Assembly: GCF_000024125.1 (NCBI RefSeq)
Contig: NC_013222.1
Location: 2,520,501 to 2,584,500, forward strand
Reading direction: 5' to 3'
DNA from: Robiginitalea biformata HTCC2501
GTDB lineage: Bacteria; Bacteroidota; Bacteroidia; Flavobacteriales; Flavobacteriaceae
Length of the DNA stretch: 64,000 nt
Shown: positions 38,244 through 48,635 of the stretch, piece after piece
How positions within the stretch are numbered: the stretch's first letter is position 1
Layout: each line of letters opens with the position of its first letter
Notes under the pieces: generated by a model
What the model was told of the DNA's origin: nothing
The model's input: only the letters and a program-made list of their open reading frames with translations
Databases searched by the model: none
Program-made: the position numbers and the translations under genes

Positions 38244-39107
38244 ATGAGGCAATTAAAAATTGTCAAGCAGGTCACTAACCGGGAGTCCAAATCGCTTGAC
38301 AAGTACCTGCAAGATATAAGTAAAATTGATCTGATAACCGCCAATGAGGAAGTAGAACTCGCACAACGCATCAAACAGGGAGACCAACTCGCACTGGAGA
38401 AGCTTACCAAAGCCAACCTCCGGTTTGTGGTGTCCGTAGCCAAACAATATCAGAATCAGGGGCTCAAGCTGCCTGACCTGATCAATGAGGGCAATGTGGG
38501 CCTGGTAAAGGCCGCGAAGCGTTTTGATGAAACCCGAGGGTTTAAGTTCATCTCCTACGCCGTTTGGTGGATTCGTCAATCCATTCTGCAGGCCCTGGCC
38601 GAACAATCCCGTGTTGTAAGGCTGCCTCTTAACAAGATCGGCTCGATCAATAAGATCAAAAAAACATTTTCCTACCTGGAGCAGGCCCACGAGCGCCCAC
38701 CTTCTGCAGAAGAGATCGCCAAAGAACTCGATATGACGGTGAGCGAGGTCAAGCAATCCATCAAGAATTCCGGAAGGCATGTCAGCATGGATGCCCCGCT
38801 TCGCGAAGGCGAAGATTCCAATTTGTACGATGTACTTCGTTCGGGAGAGTCCCCGAAACCGGACAAATCCCTGATGCTCCAGTCTTTGAACACCGAGATT
38901 AACCGGGCGCTGGAAACCCTGTCGCCCCGCGAGGCGGATGTGGTGAAACTTTATTACGGAATCGGAGACCAGCAATCGATGACGCTGGCCGAAATCGGAC
39001 AAACTTTTGACCTGACCCGTGAACGGGTCCGGCAAATACGCGAAAAAGCCATTCGCAAGCTGCGCCACCATTCCAGGAGCAAGTTGCTCAAAGCGTATTT
39101 AGGATAG
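38244..39107 (+). CDS. rpoD: Primary sigma factor RpoD (short Bacteroidetes type)
   Basis: The 287-residue protein has region 1.2 ([12 protein letters not shown]), region 2 ([34 protein letters not shown]), region 3 and region 4 ([33 protein letters not shown]). The long region 1.1 and the non-conserved insert of proteobacterial RpoD are absent, as is normal for the main sigma of Bacteroidetes. It directs RNA polymerase to TTG/TAnnTTTG promoters, such as those found in this window. It is followed by a strong terminator. Confidence 0.96.
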
Positions 39108-39583: not shown

Positions 39584-40783
39584 CTAAAAACCGGCCTGGT
39601 AGCGCAACCCGGCCTGAATTGCCAGGAAAAACGAACCGGGTTCCAGGACCAGTTCCTGTCGGGCAAGCCCTAATTGCGCCCGGTAGCGGTTTCTTCGGGA
39701 GGCACCGGTAAACTGGTATTCCAACTGCACTTGCTGGGATTCCACAAAAAACAATGATTCGGCCAGGAGCTGATCCCCGGATCGCAATTGCTGTAATTCC
39801 GGGTTGAATCCGTAAACGGCCCGCAACCCGAGATAATGGGTGGCGTGATCCAGATATCTGCGGGCCAGGATACTTCCGGAAAATCCCGGATCCCGGTCCC
39901 GGAAAACACTTACAAAAGGTCGGAAATTCAGGTAGTAATTCCCCCTGTACAGGCCAAAGGATCCGGTAATCAGCCGAACGGAAGTCTCCCTGAAATCGAG
40001 GTGCCGCCCTCCCAGGGATACCTCCATGGCCGAGGGAAGGTTTGCGAATAGCTCCACCCCTGCCCGGTGAACGGGGTAGGTCGGGGCTGCGGAGTAACCG
40101 TAATTAAGATAGGCGTAGAAGGTTTTGGACACCCGCGGATACAGATCCAATTCATACTGGACGCCATGCGTATTGAAGCGATTGCTGTAATTGATCCGCG
40201 GGATAACCTTTCCTACAGGGGTTTGGCGCTCGTATTCCAAAGTAGCATATACCATCGGATCGAAGGTATTGTCAAAGACCTGCAATTGGTTTTCAAGGCT
40301 GATGCTGTTCTGCCAGGATCCCGCCTCTTCCCGGGGTGTTTGGCTCGATTTGGAATCGAGGATTTCCTTGCGGATACGCGTAATTGCACTGTCCGGCCCC
40401 AGATACATCAGCGCCTTGTTTGCCAGCCCCAGGGCGAGGCTCCTGTTCCCGGCGTATTGTTCATTGCGGATGGCAGCCAGCCAGGATTCCGTATGCAGGC
40501 GCTCCCGGGACGTCACCCGGTTCAGGTGCCGCCGGGCCTGGTCGTAATTCCCCTCCCAACTATACGTCTTTGCCAGCAGGGTCTCCACATCGGTATATTC
40601 CGGGTAATCCGTTAAGACGGCCGCCAGGGTATCCCTGGCCGGGCCGGTTTGACCCGAGAAGGCCAGGGTCTGGGCGTATTCCAAAACCACATCCGGGTCA
40701 TACCCGGACCGCTGGCCCTGAGTACTGAGGCAGATGCCGGTGGCAAACACACATACTTTGAATATTTTCCTCGAAATAATCAT
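39584..40783 (-). CDS. TPR plus YaiO-type outer-membrane beta barrel
   Basis: The 399-residue protein has a signal peptide (CLSTQGQ), tetratricopeptide repeats at about 30-140 (LEYAQTLAFSGQTGPARDTL, KTYSWEGNYDQARRHL) and a C-terminal barrel at 160-399 of YaiO type, rich in alternating aromatic strands and ending GLRYQAGF. TPR followed by an outer-membrane barrel is also the layout of PgaA, the exporter of poly-N-acetylglucosamine. It is the last gene of a six-gene run with a glycosyltransferase, which suggests it is the export pore. Its ATG overlaps the previous stop by one base. Confidence 0.88.
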   Translation of the reverse strand: MIISRKIFKVCVFATGICLSTQGQRSGYDPDVVLEYAQTLAFSGQTGPARDTLAAVLTDYPEYTDVETLLAKTYSWEGNYDQARRHLNRVTSRERLHTESWLAAIRNEQYAGNRSLALGLANKALMYLGPDSAITRIRKEILDSKSSQTPREEAGSWQNSISLENQLQVFDNTFDPMVYATLEYERQTPVGKVIPRINYSNRFNTHGVQYELDLYPRVSKTFYAYLNYGYSAAPTYPVHRAGVELFANLPSAMEVSLGGRHLDFRETSVRLITGSFGLYRGNYYLNFRPFVSVFRDRDPGFSGSILARRYLDHATHYLGLRAVYGFNPELQQLRSGDQLLAESLFFVESQQVQLEYQFTGASRRNRYRAQLGLARQELVLEPGSFFLAIQAGLRYQAGF

Positions 40784-43110
40784 CACTGCTGGTTTTGTGA
40801 AAGCAACCGCCGGGCCCGGTCCATTTTGTCCTTCAGGGAGTTGCTACCCCCCAGGTTTGCCTTTATAGCTGGCTCCAGGTACTGCGCTTTCTGGTGTTGC
40901 CCGGACCAGAAGTACACATCGAGCAGGGCGGAATACCCGTCCGGGTAAACCGGGTATTTCTGGACAACCTGCTGGAGGATGTCCTCGGCCGTCCGGTAAT
41001 CCCCCTCCCAGGCGTGTATCCTGCCCAAAAGAATTTCACTGTCCACGTGGCCCGGCACCCGGGTTAGGATATACTCGCACAGCAATCGGGCCCGGTCCCG
41101 CCGCCCTTCAAAGGCCAGGCCCCTGGCAATGTCGTAGGCTTTATCCAGATCGGAACCGCTGAAGACGCTGTGGATCCAGACCATCTCCTTCTTCCCCGGC
41201 TCCCGGATCAGTTTTTCGTAGGGGGCAGCGGACTCCGGTATCAGGGCATTGTTTTCCAACACATAGCGTTCGGCCGCCTTCTGGAACCGGAACCGGGATT
41301 CGATCTCCTGCCCGGTTTCACCTGCCGCCTCTCGTGGCTGAAGACTTCCGTCGAGGCCAATCGCCCGGCCATCCATGTAGGCGGTTTTACCGTCGATAAC
41401 CCCCCTGAGACCGCTGTGGTCCCTATAAAGGGGAATAGGTTTCTCCTTGCGCCCGGATTCCCCGGGAATCAGGGATCCTCCCATCCAGGCGGCCTGGGCA
41501 GGCAACTGAAGGCCGTAATAGCGGGAAAGGCTCCCCAGGATGGAGGGTGCCACATCCAGGTGGGAGGCGACTTGTTCAAAAACGCGATTCCCCTTGAGCA
41601 GCGGGCTGTACACCAGGAGCGGGACGCGGTACTGGTCCAGGGATTCGCTCGCAGGCAGTCCCAAGGGGCGATGCGTACCGGTAATTATAAAAAGCGTATT
41701 TCCAGCTGCAGGAAGTCTGCTGAATTTTTTGAGGAATTTGCCGATTTGTCGGTCCGTATAGGCCATGGCGGCGATTAAATCGCGGTTTTTTCGCACAATC
41801 CGGCGCTGCCGGGCATCCAGGCCGGAGCGATCGAGGATTTGGGATACCCGATCCTGGTAGGCATCCGCATCGGGGATCAGATAGGGCCTGGAAGTGCTGA
41901 GTGTCTGTAGGATATCAAGACGTGGGACGCTACCCGCAGAGTATGATTCCAGGTACCGGTCAAACAAATCACCATCCGGATAACCAAGGGAAATACCCGC
42001 AGCATCGGGATCCTGAAGGGCGTATTGGCTTCCGAAAGCCTTGCGGTCCGTGAGCTCGTCAAGGCGTTCCTCGTACAGGAAACGGTCCCAACCGTTCAGG
42101 GAGGCATTTCCGCCATATTGAAAACTGGTCCTGTATCCATTTTTTCTGAGCAGGGAAAACATGGTCATCCGGTTGGGACTGTGCGGGGCATCTGTAAACC
42201 CTCCGGGGCCCTGGGGCAACGAACCGGATACCAACATCGGGGCCTGGCTGCTTTCCCGCGCATTGCTCAGGTAGTTTTCCCAGAAAAGGGATTGGGTTCT
42301 CAGGGAATCCAGAAATGGGGTAAATGCCCGCAACGGCGCATCTTCCCCTATAAAATCCCGACTGAGTCCCTCGACGAGGAGTATTACTACATGCGGCTCC
42401 TCCTCCTGCCAGTTTACATACGGGCCCAGGGGGTCGGGCGGCGACCAGGTCCGGTAAAACGGGTTCGGGTCGGATCCCTCGTACACCTCCCCTGCCGTCA
42501 AAGCCCGGATAAACTCGCTTCCCACAAATTCTACCTTGTTCCTGTTTACGGGCTTCCGATCCGACCAGAGCGTTGCCAGAAATAAGGTAAACAATAGGAT
42601 TGTAAACGGATACATCCCGCTGATTGCCCGGTAAAAACGCTTGCTTGACCGATAGGCCAACCGGTACGCGGTACCAAGCACTACCAGCGATATCGCGCAG
42701 GTCAGGACCATTTGCGTCGGCGAGAAAACACCCCGCAACTGGGACGCGAACTCCCTGCCGGCCAGGTCAAACACCCGGATAAAATACTCGGTCAGGAGTA
42801 CCTCTGCCAGCAACAGGGCAAGAAAGAACCCTGCCGCAGACCGGAAACCCCACCCGGGGCGTTTCTTCTCTATCGCCTTGAAAACAAAGGCATAGAAGAA
42901 GGCAACCAGTGCCGTAAAGCCCAGATGATGGACCAGAAGCAACAATAAATTGCTATTGAGAAAACTGTCGAGTACCCCGAATTCATAAAGCCGGACCTGC
43001 TGATAACCTGCCAGCAGGATCAGACTGGCATAAAACCCGATTACCAACCGGACGTAATCGCGGAGGTATCGTTTTCCCGGACGGGCGCTAAAGAGGGATG
43101 GCCATTTCAC
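40783..43110 (-). CDS. LtaS-like alkaline-phosphatase-fold membrane protein with C-terminal TPRs
   Basis: The 775-residue protein has four to five N-terminal membrane helices (22-180), a periplasmic sulfatase/LTA-synthase-type domain (240-560) and TPR-like repeats (660-775; ILLGRIHAWEGDYRTAEDIL). The first metal-site Glu is E247 in LLVEGLSRDF, the nucleophile region is ARESSQAPM, and SHLDVAPSIL matches the conserved later helix. The expected Asp-His is Thr479-His480 (ITGTHRP), so a metal ligand seems lost. Relatives transfer phosphoglycerol or phosphoethanolamine to envelope glycans. The start is GTG, four bases past the glycosyltransferase stop. Confidence 0.85.
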   Translation of the reverse strand: MKWPSLFSARPGKRYLRDYVRLVIGFYASLILLAGYQQVRLYEFGVLDSFLNSNLLLLLVHHLGFTALVAFFYAFVFKAIEKKRPGWGFRSAAGFFLALLLAEVLLTEYFIRVFDLAGREFASQLRGVFSPTQMVLTCAISLVVLGTAYRLAYRSSKRFYRAISGMYPFTILLFTLFLATLWSDRKPVNRNKVEFVGSEFIRALTAGEVYEGSDPNPFYRTWSPPDPLGPYVNWQEEEPHVVILLVEGLSRDFIGEDAPLRAFTPFLDSLRTQSLFWENYLSNARESSQAPMLVSGSLPQGPGGFTDAPHSPNRMTMFSLLRKNGYRTSFQYGGNASLNGWDRFLYEERLDELTDRKAFGSQYALQDPDAAGISLGYPDGDLFDRYLESYSAGSVPRLDILQTLSTSRPYLIPDADAYQDRVSQILDRSGLDARQRRIVRKNRDLIAAMAYTDRQIGKFLKKFSRLPAAGNTLFIITGTHRPLGLPASESLDQYRVPLLVYSPLLKGNRVFEQVASHLDVAPSILGSLSRYYGLQLPAQAAWMGGSLIPGESGRKEKPIPLYRDHSGLRGVIDGKTAYMDGRAIGLDGSLQPREAAGETGQEIESRFRFQKAAERYVLENNALIPESAAPYEKLIREPGKKEMVWIHSVFSGSDLDKAYDIARGLAFEGRRDRARLLCEYILTRVPGHVDSEILLGRIHAWEGDYRTAEDILQQVVQKYPVYPDGYSALLDVYFWSGQHQKAQYLEPAIKANLGGSNSLKDKMDRARRLLSQNQQ

Positions 43111-43114
43111 GCGA

Positions 43115-44542
43115 TCATGCTTTTGCAAATCCTTTCCGGACCTGGGAGCCCCAGCCGGAATTGATCTTGAATAGTTTCTTAAAATTTCCGCGAATGGAGG
43201 ACCATACCACCACCGGGTGGAATACCACCGGTTCCACCAGGGCACAGAACAGGAGCGTGAGAATATCGCGCGTCCGGGTGTATTGGTTGTAAGACCATAC
43301 GTCCCAGAGGACCGCATAGAATGAAAACATGGCCGCAAAGGCGTAAACCGTTGCCGTAATCGCCACAAAAAATTCCCAGTTCAAGATTCCCAGGTAGGCG
43401 AAGGCCAAAATGGAAAAGAAACCGGTGAACTCCAGGATGGGTGCCAGCCATTCGTAAAACAACCAGTACGGATAGCTCAGCATGCCCAGCCTGCCGTATT
43501 TCGGGTTAAAGAACATATCCCGGTGCCGATAGAGCGTCTCCAGGTTCCCGCGGGACCACCGGTCGCGCTGGTTAATGAAGATCCCCAGGTCTTCCGGCAC
43601 CTCGGTCCAGCAGAGCGGATCGGGTATATAGGCAACTGTATATGGGGTGTCGTTGTCGTGCATCAGGCGTCGCATCCGGAACACGATCTCCATGTCCTCC
43701 CCTACCGTGCCCGTGTCGTAGCCCCCCGCTTCCAGTGCAATCTGCCGGTCAAAAAACCCGAATGCCCCGGAAATAATTAACAGGCTGTCTATCCGGCCCC
43801 AGGCCATCCTGCCGAGCAGGAATGAACGGGTGTATTCCAGGAGTTGGAAGCGGGCCAGCCAATTCTTCGGCAGGCGGATCTCCTCGAGGGTACCCCCGTC
43901 GATCTTACAGGAATTGGCTACCCGTATAACCCCGCCAACGGCGATAACTCGTTTGCTGGTGTGTTCGTAAAACGCCTTCACCACGTGCAGGAGCGCGTCC
44001 GGGAGCAGCAGGCAGTCCACATCGATACAACCGATGTATTTGCTTTCCGAAAGTCGCATCCCGGTATTGAGCGCATCGGATTTGCCCCCGTTTTCCTTAT
44101 CGATGACGGTCAATTTCTCAAAGGACCGTTGCCGGGATTTATACACCCCCCGGATGGGTTTACAGGGCCACTCCGGGTCAATGTCCATCGGGACCCGTTC
44201 CAGGTCATAGGCAGCCACCATTTTCTCAAGGGTATCATCCTTGCTGCCGTCGTTTACTACCATAACCTCGTAGTTTACATAGCGTAGGGACAGCAAGGAG
44301 CGGATGTTTTCCACAATGGTCAACCCTTCGTTGTATGCTGGGGCAATAATCGTGATACTCGGCGCCAGCGGGGAGGCCATGGTCCGGGAGATATCGCCAA
44401 TACTGTTCTTATGCCTGTAGTGGATGGAATTCCTGGTGGACAAGTACCCCATGATGGTAAAAAGGGTAAACAGGACCACCGTGAACAACAGGAAGACGAT
44501 GTTGATATAGTCCAGCAATATGTCGAATACTTCGCTATTCAT
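43115..44542 (-). CDS. Membrane glycosyltransferase family 2, processive synthase type
   Basis: The 475-residue protein has one N-terminal membrane helix, a GT-A domain with NDGS (97-100), DVD (174-176), GED (281-283) and QRDRW (325-329), and four C-terminal helices. D, DxD, ED and QxxRW are the set found in processive synthases (cellulose, hyaluronan, PgaC), which build and translocate a polysaccharide in one step. The sugar cannot be told. Its start overlaps the HEAT gene stop by eight bases. Confidence 0.93.
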   Translation of the reverse strand: MNSEVFDILLDYINIVFLLFTVVLFTLFTIMGYLSTRNSIHYRHKNSIGDISRTMASPLAPSITIIAPAYNEGLTIVENIRSLLSLRYVNYEVMVVNDGSKDDTLEKMVAAYDLERVPMDIDPEWPCKPIRGVYKSRQRSFEKLTVIDKENGGKSDALNTGMRLSESKYIGCIDVDCLLLPDALLHVVKAFYEHTSKRVIAVGGVIRVANSCKIDGGTLEEIRLPKNWLARFQLLEYTRSFLLGRMAWGRIDSLLIISGAFGFFDRQIALEAGGYDTGTVGEDMEIVFRMRRLMHDNDTPYTVAYIPDPLCWTEVPEDLGIFINQRDRWSRGNLETLYRHRDMFFNPKYGRLGMLSYPYWLFYEWLAPILEFTGFFSILAFAYLGILNWEFFVAITATVYAFAAMFSFYAVLWDVWSYNQYTRTRDILTLLFCALVEPVVFHPVVVWSSIRGNFKKLFKINSGWGSQVRKGFAKA

Positions 44543-46538
44543 CCGTAGGGTTTATCCCGGGTCTATCCGCGGTTGGTTTGGTTGCCACCCGGTTATCCGG
44601 GCCAGGTTTTTGCGGCCTGATGGCCTCAAAGTCCGGCGTAAAGTCGATAAATTGACCGCCATATCGCGTGGGTTTGGCGCCGGTCTCCCCCGGTTCCTCC
44701 GCCTCTGTTGCGGCAGGGGGCTGATGGTCGCAATCGGCCTTCCGGCCAGTCCGTGGAGAAGCATCCCCTAATTTTTCAGTCAACTGCCGGATGGCTTCCC
44801 GGACGGCTTTCCGGACTTCGGGTTCCGGGTCATCGGCCAGGGAGTTTAAATACGCCAGCTCCTTTTCTTCTCCCACTTCGGGAATGGCGGCAAGCAGGAT
44901 CAGCTTGGATTCCGCATCGCAATGGTTGTAGAATTCCCGGACGATAGAAAATGTATCCCCAGGGTCTCCCTCCCGCGGGGCCGCCTGGAAATACTCCAGG
45001 TTGTCCGGGGCAGCATCCGGCTCTCCGTCCAGTTCAAACGCGGGCTGTCGGAAGTCATCCCGATTGCCTGGAGCCGGTTCTTCCGGGGCCTCCTCGAGGA
45101 TTTCGGCCGTTACGGGCAGGTTTCGGAAGGGTTGAATGTCCCGGGGTGCCGGCGGGGCTGATTCGGTTACCATGGGCAAAAATTCAGGTACGGGATTTTC
45201 CGCCGGGGACTCCGAGATGTATTCGTTGAGGATGGCATCCAATTCCTGCAACAGGCAGATATCGAACAGCGCCAGATCCTCATCCGTGATTTCCTCTTCG
45301 TGTGTCTCCTCGACGTCAATAGTGATTTCCTCCGCCCCGGCAACTTCCAATTCGTAAAAATTTCCGTCCTCATCACCAACCACCTGTTCATCGCGCACTT
45401 CCAGTTCGTCAGCCCGGGAGGTCGTTTCCGGCTGCGGGGTGGGCGCAACCATTTCTTCCACAGGCGCTTCCAGATTGGCCTGGGGAAGTACCGAATCGGG
45501 CACCAGTCGGTTCAGGACACTGCGGGCTTTGGAACGCACGATGAAATTGGTATCCGATTGGGCCTGCTGCTGCAGGAAGTCGCAATCCCCGGGGTTGCCA
45601 ATGGTTTCCAGGGTGTTTAATATGGACAACTTCACGGCCTCCCCGGACTTTTTGAACAAGGCCTTCAGGGGGGCGCGGGCCGACTCGAAATGAAACTCCC
45701 GGATGCATTCAATAGCCGCGACCTTTACGCTCTGGTCGCGGTGCCGAAGCAATTGCAGGATGGCGGCTTCCGCCTCGTTCTGACGAAAATGCCGGATCAA
45801 TCGCAGGGAAAACAACACCACGTGCTTGTTTTCGGATACGAGCCAGTCGCCAAATCGCGGCGGTTGGTAGTCCTCCCGATGCTGAAGGATCTCCAGCAAC
45901 TTGAGTTGCTGCCATTCCGAAATGCCGTACCGGGTGGTATCCAGGAAATAGGCCATTCCCTCTTTCCGGAGCGTGACGGTGGCCAACTCGGCCTGTTTGC
46001 GGATTACCCCCCTCCGGTCGTTGATAAACTTCCTGATAAAGCCGTACGCCTGGGTCACCCGCATTTCCGTGAGTTGGCGTATCCCCCGGGAAACGCGCTC
46101 CCATCGCCAGCTATTGAGCATTTGGTAGGCATCCTGGTCCAGGCCCAGGTCCTGGTAGAGCCGGAACAGCCGGTCGCGGGCATCTCCGGAGACATCCAAC
46201 CGCAAGTCCATCAGGACTTCCGTGAGCACCCGGCGGTTTTTCGGGGTTTTGAGCATCTCCCGTATTTCCAGTTTCATCCGGATATACGTTTCCCGAAGCT
46301 CCGTGTCGTTTTCCTGTTCAAAAAACAGGAAGTTGCTGATCATTGGGGCCAGTTCGCGTTTTTTCTCCAGATTGGATCGTTCCCGGCGGGTATTCCGGTT
46401 GCGCAGCCAGAAAATCAGCAAAAAATACAGAAACCCCAGCCCGCCGAAAAGCAAACCGAGGTCCCAGAGTAAATCCGTATGGATTTCAGGGGCTTCCAGC
46501 AATCGCAGGGGGTAATATGTAATAGACAGGTTTATCAA
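44535..46538 (-). CDS. Membrane-anchored HEAT-repeat protein
   Basis: The 667-residue protein has one N-terminal membrane helix (LLFGGLGFLYFLLIFWL, about 26-42), then helical HEAT-like repeats at 100-340 (QSVKVAAIECIREFHFESA, VKLSILNTLETIGNPGDCDF). An acidic low-complexity linker (EEITIDVEETHEEEITDEDL) follows, and another HEAT-like pair near 560-620. The orientation puts the repeats in the cytoplasm. It lies between the lone receiver and the synthase, so it may connect signal to enzyme. The start seems to be TTG, overlapping the receiver stop as TTGA. Confidence 0.85.
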   Translation of the reverse strand: MINLSITYYPLRLLEAPEIHTDLLWDLGLLFGGLGFLYFLLIFWLRNRNTRRERSNLEKKRELAPMISNFLFFEQENDTELRETYIRMKLEIREMLKTPKNRRVLTEVLMDLRLDVSGDARDRLFRLYQDLGLDQDAYQMLNSWRWERVSRGIRQLTEMRVTQAYGFIRKFINDRRGVIRKQAELATVTLRKEGMAYFLDTTRYGISEWQQLKLLEILQHREDYQPPRFGDWLVSENKHVVLFSLRLIRHFRQNEAEAAILQLLRHRDQSVKVAAIECIREFHFESARAPLKALFKKSGEAVKLSILNTLETIGNPGDCDFLQQQAQSDTNFIVRSKARSVLNRLVPDSVLPQANLEAPVEEMVAPTPQPETTSRADELEVRDEQVVGDEDGNFYELEVAGAEEITIDVEETHEEEITDEDLALFDICLLQELDAILNEYISESPAENPVPEFLPMVTESAPPAPRDIQPFRNLPVTAEILEEAPEEPAPGNRDDFRQPAFELDGEPDAAPDNLEYFQAAPREGDPGDTFSIVREFYNHCDAESKLILLAAIPEVGEEKELAYLNSLADDPEPEVRKAVREAIRQLTEKLGDASPRTGRKADCDHQPPAATEAEEPGETGAKPTRYGGQFIDFTPDFEAIRPQKPGPDNRVATKPTADRPGINPTDE

Positions 46539-46912
46539 TACGCCCGTTGTCTCAGTAATTTTCCTACCCGCACAAGGAGTTCGGACGGGCTGACCGGCTT
46601 GGACACAAAGTCATCCGCCCCCATTTCAAAGGCATTCAGGACGTTTGATTCATTCCCGGCCGTGGACATAATGATTACGGGGGTCGAATCCTCGAGCTCA
46701 TTGCGCAGGAATTCCACCAGCTCAATCCCCGAAAAATAAGGCATCATGATATCGCTGATAATGATATCCGCCTTTTGGCTTTCCAGATACTCCTTAACCT
46801 GCCGTCCGTCGCGGGCATGCGATACAGCGTACCCCCCCTTTTCCAGTCGGAATTTGAGCAGGGAAGCCAGCATTTCGTCGTCTTCTGCAAGTAATATTTT
46901 CTTTTCAGCCAT
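46535..46912 (-). CDS. Stand-alone response regulator receiver
   Basis: The 125-residue CheY-like receiver has the acidic pair D11/D12 (LLAEDDE), the phosphorylated D54 in IIISDIMMP, and K105 in FVSKPVS. There is no output domain, so it must act by protein contact. It follows a hybrid kinase with Hpt (eight-base overlap) and precedes the HEAT gene (four-base overlap), so it is the likely end of that phosphorelay and may bind the HEAT protein or the synthase. Confidence 0.93.
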   Translation of the reverse strand: MAEKKILLAEDDEMLASLLKFRLEKGGYAVSHARDGRQVKEYLESQKADIIISDIMMPYFSGIELVEFLRNELEDSTPVIIMSTAGNESNVLNAFEMGADDFVSKPVSPSELLVRVGKLLRQRAY

Positions 46913-48635
46913 GACCCTGATCTTTTTTCAATTTTTCCACCTCCCGCTCCAACTGGGCTTCTAACCGGGGAAAATCCTCAGCGAGCTCGTCGAATCGTTG
47001 TCCGATTTCCCCCAGGCCCGTCTCTTCCTTGCTTAGCTGATGTATGGCCTCCACATGTTCCAGCCAGTATCCGGCACGGACCATCCGCAGGCCTGACTTT
47101 ACCTTGTGTGCCGCAGCGGTGATTTGCGCATAGTCGGCAGTAGGGAGGTGCAACCGGATTTTCCCGATGAATTCCAGCAGGTTATTTTTGAGCAAGCCAA
47201 TCAATTGCTCCAGGACGTCCATATCCCCTGAGCATTCCGCCCATAGTGCCTGTACATCAATCTTCCCCAGTTTTTCGGGGCGCGAATGGGCTTCGTTTGG
47301 GACAACCCTTCCATTTTGGAGGTAAAACTCAAGCCTCCCGAAAAGCTCGGCAGGGACATAGGGTTTTAAAAGGACATCGTCGATACCGCTTGCCTTCCGC
47401 CGTTCTTCGTCCCGGGCGGTGAAATCGGCGGTTACCGCGATGATTGGGATATTCTGCAAACCCGGCTCGGAGTGATTGCGGATTTGCCGGCTCAATTCAA
47501 AACCGTTTGCCTGCGGCAGGTGCAGGTCCATCAGGATCAGGTCTACCGGGTTCTTCTGAAGTAAGGCCATGCCGTAGGCAGCCTGTTCTGCCCGGTAAAC
47601 GTGGCACCCCCAGCTTTTCAGCCGGGTCTCAAGCAGTTTCATATTCAGGGGGTTGTCTTCAAACACCAAAATGCGCTTCCCTTCCAAACGCTTTTCATCC
47701 GGCGATTCAGGCTCCTGCAGGGTGCCCGGTTCCGGGGAGGTGGTTCCCAGGGTGTACGGCAGGCGGAAACTAAAGCGCGATCCGCTTCCCGGCTCGCTTT
47801 CCGCCCATATGGCGCCCCCCTGCCGCTCGATGATTTTTTTTACGATACTGAGCCCCAGTCCTGTGCCGATTCCCTGGGTCTCCCCGGTTTGCCCCCCCTG
47901 GTGAAAAGGGTTAAATATCAGGCCGAGGTCTGAGGGCTGAATCCCGGGACCGGTGTCTTCGACTTCCCCGTGGAGCGTACAGGTCCGTTTGCGCCATTCG
48001 CAGCGCATCCGCAGGGTGATGTGACCGGAGGCCGTAAATTTGATGGCATTTCCGAGTAGATTCATCAGTATCTGCGACAATTTGGAAGGATCCCCCAGCA
48101 ACAGGTCGGGCAGGTCCCGGGCAATTTCCGTTCGAAAGGCCACATTGTCGCGCACTATCAGGGTTTTGCAGAGGTACCCCACCTCCCCGAGCACCTGCTT
48201 CGGGTTAAACGGAATGCTGGTCGCTTTCCAGGTACCCGATTCGATAGTTGAAAATTCCCTGAGTTCATTGACGATTTCCAGCAATCCGTGGGCTGCCGAC
48301 CGGATAGCGCCGACGTATTCCGCTTCCCGTTCCCCCAGCGGGCTTTCGGAAAGCAGGTCGGTAAATCCGATGATCCCGCTAAGGGGCGTACGGATTTCAT
48401 GGCTGACGGTTGCAATCAGCATTTGGGAGTCCCTGGAGGCCTCGGGCAATTCGGCTGACGCCTCCTCCCCGGCCCCCGGATCCCAGATTTTGTCTTCCAA
48501 TTGCCTGCAAAATGCTTCAAAACGACTTTTGAGGGTTTTGGCTTCCCCGATGCTCATCTGGTCAAAAGAAAAACCATCAATGGCAGATCGCAATTCGGCT
48601 ATTTGCTGCAGGAGGCCTTGAGAACTTGTGGGCAT
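46905..48635 (-). CDS. Cytoplasmic hybrid histidine kinase with receiver and Hpt domains
   Basis: The 576-residue protein has a short N-terminal coil (1-65), a dimerisation domain with H79 (TVSHEIRTPLSG), an ATPase domain (N box near 192-197, DTGPG at 228, GTGLGLSIV at 258), a receiver with D370 (LILMDLHLP) and an Hpt domain with H510 (AAHKVKSGLRM). There is no membrane helix or PAS domain, so it senses internally or through a partner. The chain H79, D370, H510, then D54 of the next gene is a complete phosphorelay as in BarA or ArcB. It is first in the six-gene run. Confidence 0.94.
   Translation of the reverse strand: MPTSSQGLLQQIAELRSAIDGFSFDQMSIGEAKTLKSRFEAFCRQLEDKIWDPGAGEEASAELPEASRDSQMLIATVSHEIRTPLSGIIGFTDLLSESPLGEREAEYVGAIRSAAHGLLEIVNELREFSTIESGTWKATSIPFNPKQVLGEVGYLCKTLIVRDNVAFRTEIARDLPDLLLGDPSKLSQILMNLLGNAIKFTASGHITLRMRCEWRKRTCTLHGEVEDTGPGIQPSDLGLIFNPFHQGGQTGETQGIGTGLGLSIVKKIIERQGGAIWAESEPGSGSRFSFRLPYTLGTTSPEPGTLQEPESPDEKRLEGKRILVFEDNPLNMKLLETRLKSWGCHVYRAEQAAYGMALLQKNPVDLILMDLHLPQANGFELSRQIRNHSEPGLQNIPIIAVTADFTARDEERRKASGIDDVLLKPYVPAELFGRLEFYLQNGRVVPNEAHSRPEKLGKIDVQALWAECSGDMDVLEQLIGLLKNNLLEFIGKIRLHLPTADYAQITAAAHKVKSGLRMVRAGYWLEHVEAIHQLSKEETGLGEIGQRFDELAEDFPRLEAQLEREVEKLKKDQGHG

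Follow-up and report, generated by a model that had tools for sequence, protein, structure and literature searches.

In this work we have examined a six-gene operon of Robiginitalea biformata HTCC2501, which lies in a window of 64,000 nucleotides (the whole stretch of DNA that was analysed; contig NC_013222.1, positions 2,520,501 to 2,584,500). With moderate confidence we read it as an operon for synthase-dependent exopolysaccharide secretion with a built-in phosphorelay in place of control by cyclic di-GMP (c-di-GMP). All six genes are on the minus strand, span window positions 48635-39584 and encode, in the order of reading, a hybrid histidine kinase, a lone receiver, a HEAT protein, a synthase of glycosyltransferase family 2 (GT2), a TPR-bearing membrane protein of LtaS-like type and a TPR protein with a YaiO barrel (Table 1). 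The kinase and receiver genes overlap by 8 nt, the receiver and HEAT genes by 4 nt, the HEAT and GT2 genes by 8 nt and the LtaS-like and YaiO genes by 4 nt; between the GT2 and LtaS-like genes there is a gap of 4 nt. TTG is the start codon of the HEAT gene and GTG that of the LtaS-like and YaiO genes. A preliminary description of this DNA had listed six minus-strand genes joined by overlaps or a four-base gap and had likened them to Pga and Bcs operons. Coordinates and domain matches bear out the layout, and the domain content is consistent with a synthase and export operon of the Pga/Bcs type. The likely product of the gene set is a sugar polymer, which it would also export.

Table 1. Genes of the operon and the two small reading frames downstream of it, in window positions
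Feature	Position	Strand	Remarks
Hybrid histidine kinase	46905..48635	-	N-terminal hairpin, HisKA (H79), HATPase, REC (D370), C-terminal Hpt (H510)
Lone receiver	46535..46912	-	Phospho-acceptor D54; without output domain
Membrane-anchored HEAT protein	44535..46538	-	HEAT_2 match; hydrophobic segment 27-45
GT2 processive-type synthase, PgaC/IcaA-like	43115..44542	-	DxD, GED and QxxRW motifs
LtaS-like membrane protein	40783..43110	-	Sulfatase fold, C-terminal TPRs; S287, T479; probably pseudoenzyme
TPR + YaiO outer-membrane barrel	39584..40786	-	YaiO match 2e-59
Microprotein A, 32 aa	39335..39433	-	Downstream of YaiO, same strand
Microprotein B, 33 aa	39191..39292	-	LNEIL core common to A and B

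The synthase carries the motifs of a processive-type membrane GT2 (DxD, a TED-like motif and QxxRW) with D174/D176, D283 and Q325 as the motif residues. Is it the synthase of a Pga system with swapped regulators, whose product would be poly-N-acetylglucosamine? Among the NCBIfam models PgaC/IcaA does score best against the GT2, and the exporter is a TPR-barrel, but the score of 140 bits is far under the curated cut-off of 422, the six genes include neither the PgaB deacetylase nor PgaD, and the exporter barrel is of the YaiO type; we consider this explanation unlikely. According to PMC8461298, the complex of PgaC and PgaD is stabilised by c-di-GMP, which binds both proteins. The operon resembles PgaABCD in its PgaC-like GT2, its TPR-barrel exporter and a presumed control via a partner protein, but the HEAT protein would replace PgaD and the receiver would replace c-di-GMP. 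The match to the CelA/BcsA equivalog reaches 35 of 699 bits, and the operon differs from Bcs in that the synthase has no PilZ and the six genes include no BcsB or BcsQ. Since the scores are under the cut-offs and subunits are missing, membership of the Pga or Bcs systems fails.

The HEAT protein has one hydrophobic segment, as judged by hydropathy alone, and its HEAT part is taken to be cytosolic because basic residues follow this segment. Of four HEAT_2 genes in the genome, three pass the Pfam cut-off; its only YaiO match is the operon's own gene. By family match the latter is a TPR-containing outer-membrane exporter, export itself being predicted. At four other GT2 loci, which served as a control, no HEAT or receiver match was found within flanks of ~1.5 kb.

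Conservation of the module in Bacteroidota

The comparison drew on several sets of loci. Close-relative loci came from 20 relatives with a strong GT2 match out of 59 examined, and the named loci are the best 80 of at least 580; less 10 that were >98% identical to another, these give 90 non-redundant loci. As the first 20 loci and the window supplied the sequences for the search profiles, they match by construction. For the phylum, 392 Bacteroidota genomes were searched for the GT2 at a threshold of E up to 1e-80, and from the GT2-positive genomes a distant set of 40 loci was hand-picked to favour distant ones. Simple calling of open reading frames was unreliable in L141, L146 and L150, and L070 was set aside, its frames being broken throughout.

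In the 90-locus set a HEAT gene lies directly upstream of the GT2 gene in all 89 loci whose flank is long enough. A receiver gene is found upstream on the same strand in 79/84, at most 3.6 kb from the GT2 gene; it is missed in L035, L036, L070, L100 and L115, and L080 is counted among the 79 though its receiver is degenerate. The LtaS-like protein is present in 65/82 loci, YaiO lies <=9.5 kb away in 74/78, and a kinase-profile match is nearby in 62/78. The complete six-gene order, with kinases reduced to Hpt counted in, occurs in 36 of the 90; contig ends truncate some of the remaining loci. The GT2 family was found in 99/392 sampled genomes, about a quarter. In the distant set the gene preceding GT2 matches Pfam HEAT_2 in 39/40 loci, although these proteins mostly have <25% identity to the first of them, and a same-strand receiver lies <=2.5 kb before GT2 in 27/40. 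Hosts of the module include Zobellia, Maribacter, Eudoraea, Flavobacterium, Polaribacter, Chryseobacterium, Sphingobacterium, Mucilaginibacter, Pontibacter and Niabella. In 35 of 140 loci the GT2 did not match strict motif patterns, usually at the DxDC pattern, and our own profiles detected no natural fusion of receiver to HEAT or of HEAT to GT2 among the 140.

The gene set is real and widespread in bacteria. The preliminary description had proposed a search for its order across Bacteroidetes; the order is conserved across Bacteroidota and so is not confined to this genome. A literature search on the module and its control, judged by titles and the starts of abstracts, returned no paper on this module. 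As far as gene neighbourhood tells, the near-invariant partner of the synthase is the HEAT protein and not the receiver, the HEAT-GT2 pair being kept in receiver-less loci.

Two further observations concern the surroundings of distant modules. Proteins of ~390 aa which look alike by eye lie near three of them (L127:10770-11960, L128:2007-3155 and L152:5311-6498), and the one in L127 has no Pfam match. YaiO proteins of ~940-1010 aa occur in L145, L159 and L161, where the LtaS-like TPR protein has no match; that of L145, the one of the three scanned, is TPR-rich.

The phosphorelay and the proposed control of the synthase

Synthase machines of this kind are usually switched by c-di-GMP, which is made by GGDEF proteins. 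No GGDEF and no PilZ match was found anywhere in the genome, other kinds of c-di-GMP receptor not having been searched, and what the preliminary description had said of PilZ and GGDEF at the locus holds for the whole genome. Many Gram-negative members have a c-di-GMP receptor in the synthase complex; here, as judged by PilZ and GGDEF, there is none. In this bacterium, seemingly without the usual messenger, the phosphorelay probably takes the switching role. The hybrid kinase is called soluble, as hydropathy found no hydrophobic membrane segment in it, and its Hpt domain scores 20.8 bits with Pfam, slightly below the cut-off of 24.6. The residues of a relay are all present (H79 of HisKA, D370 of REC, H510 of Hpt and D54 of the terminal receiver), the phosphotransfer itself being predicted.

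Gene loss among close relatives supports this phosphorelay, and the step from Hpt to receiver in particular. The Hpt histidine is kept in 38/38 non-redundant close loci which have a kinase gene and an intact receiver (window included), among them nine in which the kinase core or the HisKA His is lost (L027, L029, L032, L050, L054, L060, L064, L074 and L086). The kinases of L029, L032 and L050 retain the N-terminal hairpin and Hpt, the latter confirmed by Pfam in L050, and in L054 and L060 the Hpt part alone was found. Kinase loss amounts to 8 changes on one GT2 tree; L035 keeps its HisKA His, and by parsimony reasoning the count stays the same with L036 alone marked. In the close loci which have a kinase gene and no receiver, the Hpt histidine is lost in 3/3. 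In L035 and L036 it has become Glu and the receiver gene is absent; as these are sister genomes, they represent one loss event. In L166 (L166:8100-12500), a genome of the same genus, it is Arg, as read by eye in the translation. Most of the operon is deleted there, with no receiver, HEAT core, synthase, LtaS-like or YaiO gene present. What remains is a kinase in decay and a scrap of HEAT, together with both microproteins and the sigma paralogue described below. A further form of decay is seen in L080, where the kinase has shrunk to the N-terminal hairpin and is joined to a receiver whose Asp is changed to Ser. Because the Hpt histidine is kept with the receiver and lost without it, Hpt-to-receiver transfer appears to be the step under selection, in support of the relay ending on the lone receiver that had been proposed for this DNA.

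Could the receiver instead be a phosphate sink, or signal to a remote partner, the signalling genes being in the operon for co-expression only? Lone receivers can serve as phosphate sinks, and some lineages of the module dispense with theirs. But phylum-wide the receiver stays with HEAT-GT2 more steadily than the kinase does (79/84 against 62/78), and the Hpt histidine and the receiver are lost together, so that we find this possibility quite unlikely. In a receiver tree (FastTree, short sequences, support values not considered) the module receivers cluster together, apart from the kinase-embedded ones; the tree puts a few further flank-encoded receivers in other positions.

Several observations weigh against the idea that the receiver gates the synthase. 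L035, L036 and L080 have no working receiver and yet retain synthase, HEAT protein and exporter, and in 13/40 distant loci the stretch just upstream carries no same-strand receiver; the receiver is therefore not required for the machine to exist. A comparison of otherwise-invariant sites in the lineages that lost the relay was ambiguous overall. In L035/L036, 7 and 9 of 40 such sites are changed in HEAT (controls reach 4), 15 and 14 of 193 in GT2 (controls reach 5) and 1 of 41 in YaiO, which is suggestive. In L080/L082 it is not: the changes in HEAT (3 of 40) and GT2 (5 of 193) are within the controls, and YaiO is changed at 4 of 41, above the controls (up to 2). Both lineages are on long branches. 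HEAT F70 and GT2 G216, which are changed in both, were rejected as candidate sites, as single overlaps are expected at about chance by our estimate; at G216, moreover, distant receiver-bearing loci already have D, N or K, as seen by eye.

The retention of HEAT-GT2 where the receiver is gone would also suit a different role of the HEAT protein, that of a localisation scaffold tying the synthase to peptidoglycan or to a cell site, with the receiver deciding where polymer is made and not how much. LysM and SPOR are peptidoglycan-binding domains, and weak matches to them precede the membrane segment in the HEAT proteins of L158 (LysM, L158:9173-10618, E 0.0017) and L165 (SPOR, L165:6376-8289, E 0.0083). 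Both matches are, however, below the Pfam cut-offs and occur in 1/40 members each, and the HEAT protein of the window has only ~26 residues ahead of its hydrophobic segment. We think such a scaffold an unlikely explanation.

Is the receiver the only input to this machine? GGDEF proteins are encoded in 134/247 sampled genomes of the phylum, none of them from the window's family or order. In 7/140 loci, all from distant lineages, one is found near the synthase and always on the same strand. At two of these a REC-GGDEF-REC protein is encoded directly upstream of HEAT-GT2 (L137:5133-6695 and L141:5407-7032), and L142, L146, L147, L148 and L149 have a separate GGDEF protein. Four of the seven (L146-L149) have no upstream receiver, and nine of the 13 receiver-less distant loci have no nearby GGDEF either; this is no more than a hint that receiver and cyclase may be alternative inputs to one machine. 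We put forward only tentatively a Bacteroidota-wide class of machines in which a receiver, acting via HEAT, would gate the synthase directly, having taken over from diguanylate cyclases or alternating with them. On this view the REC-GGDEF-REC or GGDEF protein of some deep-branching members holds the receiver's place, and branches lacking GGDEF proteins retain the receiver alone.

The LtaS-like protein and the genes downstream

The preliminary description had also recognised an LtaS-like protein with TPRs. Fold and TPRs stand, with the correction that the catalytic residues look degenerate in this genus. The protein resembles the LtaS/LtaP/VP1736 family in its fold, as predicted from sequence, and in active relatives also in a Thr nucleophile and an Asp-His pair. 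It differs from that family in its C-terminal TPRs and its GT2 partnership or fusion, and the window copy has no Asp: S287 is at the nucleophile position and T479-H480 at the metal site. All 18 loci classed as active have Thr and Asp-His, the class being defined by these residues, and the active relatives match LtaS-family structures with Thr and Asp-His aligned. BcsG of E. coli, too, belongs with the EptA/LtaS-type enzymes. In 19/19 degenerate loci, from this genus and several others, the metal Asp is replaced by Thr, Ser or Asn; the catalytic domain is deleted in L035, L036 and L067, where the membrane and TPR parts remain.

When loci are matched for GT2 identity (78-84%), active ones share 78% identity in the catalytic domain, the best conserved part of their protein, and degenerate ones 45%. 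The membrane part falls from 69 to 41 and the TPR part from 62 to 45, whereas the identities of YaiO (53 active, 50 degenerate) and HEAT (56 and 53) differ little. This drop indicates that catalytic constraint was lost and a scaffold left, and the Robiginitalea LtaS-like protein is probably a pseudoenzyme. Could it still be an enzyme with an altered active site? The uniform Thr, Ser or Asn at the metal position, followed by a kept His in 16/19 degenerate loci, could be taken in that sense, but the residue at the nucleophile position is not constant (S, A, G, N, T, P, D), the catalytic domain has dropped to the level of the membrane and TPR parts, and three loci have lost it outright, all of which makes this very improbable to us. 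The number of inactivations depends on the tree: one GT2 tree gives 5 changes, the tree of the LtaS-like protein (ALP) gives 2 and an outgroup-free GT2 tree also gives 2. GT2 and the LtaS-like protein are fused in 10/82 loci, and in L154 the fusion includes the TPR.

A GDPD-like gene (Pfam 1.9e-7), whose start resembles a signal peptide, separates YaiO from microprotein A in 13/18 active loci and in 0/22 of those classed as inactive; the 13 are L050 (L050:15157-16449) and 12 further non-redundant loci. The association gives a Fisher value of 7e-7 with kinship ignored, yet on the tree there are only 1-2 independent pairs and it is not significant, which speaks against giving it much weight. Together with the LtaS match, this neighbour suggests that in active relatives the polymer may receive a decoration of the glycerophosphate type.

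Microproteins A and B are both unannotated and have no Pfam match. A is present in 40/44 close loci, the misses (L045, L060, L079 and L084) being contigs that end before the site, and B, by a strict pattern, in 28/44; a search of 87 distant module loci and of 19 sigma-factor loci elsewhere found neither. Codon comparisons point clearly to purifying selection on A (42 sequences; 11106 synonymous against 3500 nonsynonymous pairwise differences, 21/32 columns invariant) and less clearly on B (24 sequences; 2719 against 3164, 9/33 columns invariant). Both persist in L166 without a synthase, so their link to the operon is only putative. Convergent with the operon, on the plus strand at 38244-39107, lies a sigma-70 gene whose second copy elsewhere in the genome is 84% identical. 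In 11/11 close loci with that flank, the copy beside the operon is 92-97% identical; in 20 other genomes of the family or order (G004 apart), sigma matches were found in 19 and none exceeded 84%.

Proposed mechanism and its meaning

The comparison supports the module as such, the dependence of Hpt on the receiver, the proximity of GT2 and the LtaS-like protein, and the loss of catalysis here. In the model we propose, the soluble hybrid kinase would pass phosphate from its REC to its Hpt domain and on to the lone receiver, the last step being the one that gene loss supports. The receiver would set the state of the HEAT-GT2 complex as a removable switch on HEAT, both the contact and the on/off sense being assumptions of the model. 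From its near-invariant adjacency, the HEAT protein may be an obligatory cytosolic co-subunit or scaffold of the GT2, in the place taken elsewhere by PgaD or BcsE. The GT2, to judge by its motifs, would polymerise the sugar chain and extrude it. The LtaS-like/TPR protein is expected to sit at the periplasmic exit of the synthase, as natural fusion supports; in relatives it probably adds a phosphodiester group, likely phosphoglycerol, and in Robiginitalea it would keep a scaffold role alone. By analogy with PgaA and BcsC, the YaiO TPR-barrel would carry the chain across the outer membrane.

By analogy, the nearest precedent is E. coli BcsE, where a GT2 synthase is accompanied by a degenerate receiver and GGDEF. 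According to PMC11470070, the type II Bcs system has a GT2 synthase to which the periplasmic phosphoethanolamine transferase BcsG is recruited, the regulator BcsE is cytosolic and carries REC* and GGDEF* domains, and BcsC is a TPR-porin. The module likewise has a GT2, an LtaS-like periplasmic partner, a presumed receiver regulator and a TPR exporter. Unlike Bcs, it has a receiver with an intact Asp, an Hpt kinase, a HEAT subunit and a YaiO barrel; some relatives have its LtaS-like partner as a fusion with the synthase, and in Robiginitalea this partner looks inactive.

The natural gene losses already point to residues for mutation. From the GT2-LtaS fusion and the adjoining phosphodiesterase one would expect the polymer of Zobellia and many Maribacter to be phosphodiester-decorated and that of Robiginitalea to be undecorated, a contrast that can be tested. 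If the receiver does gate the synthase via HEAT, these bacteria would have a route to the control of matrix export without c-di-GMP.

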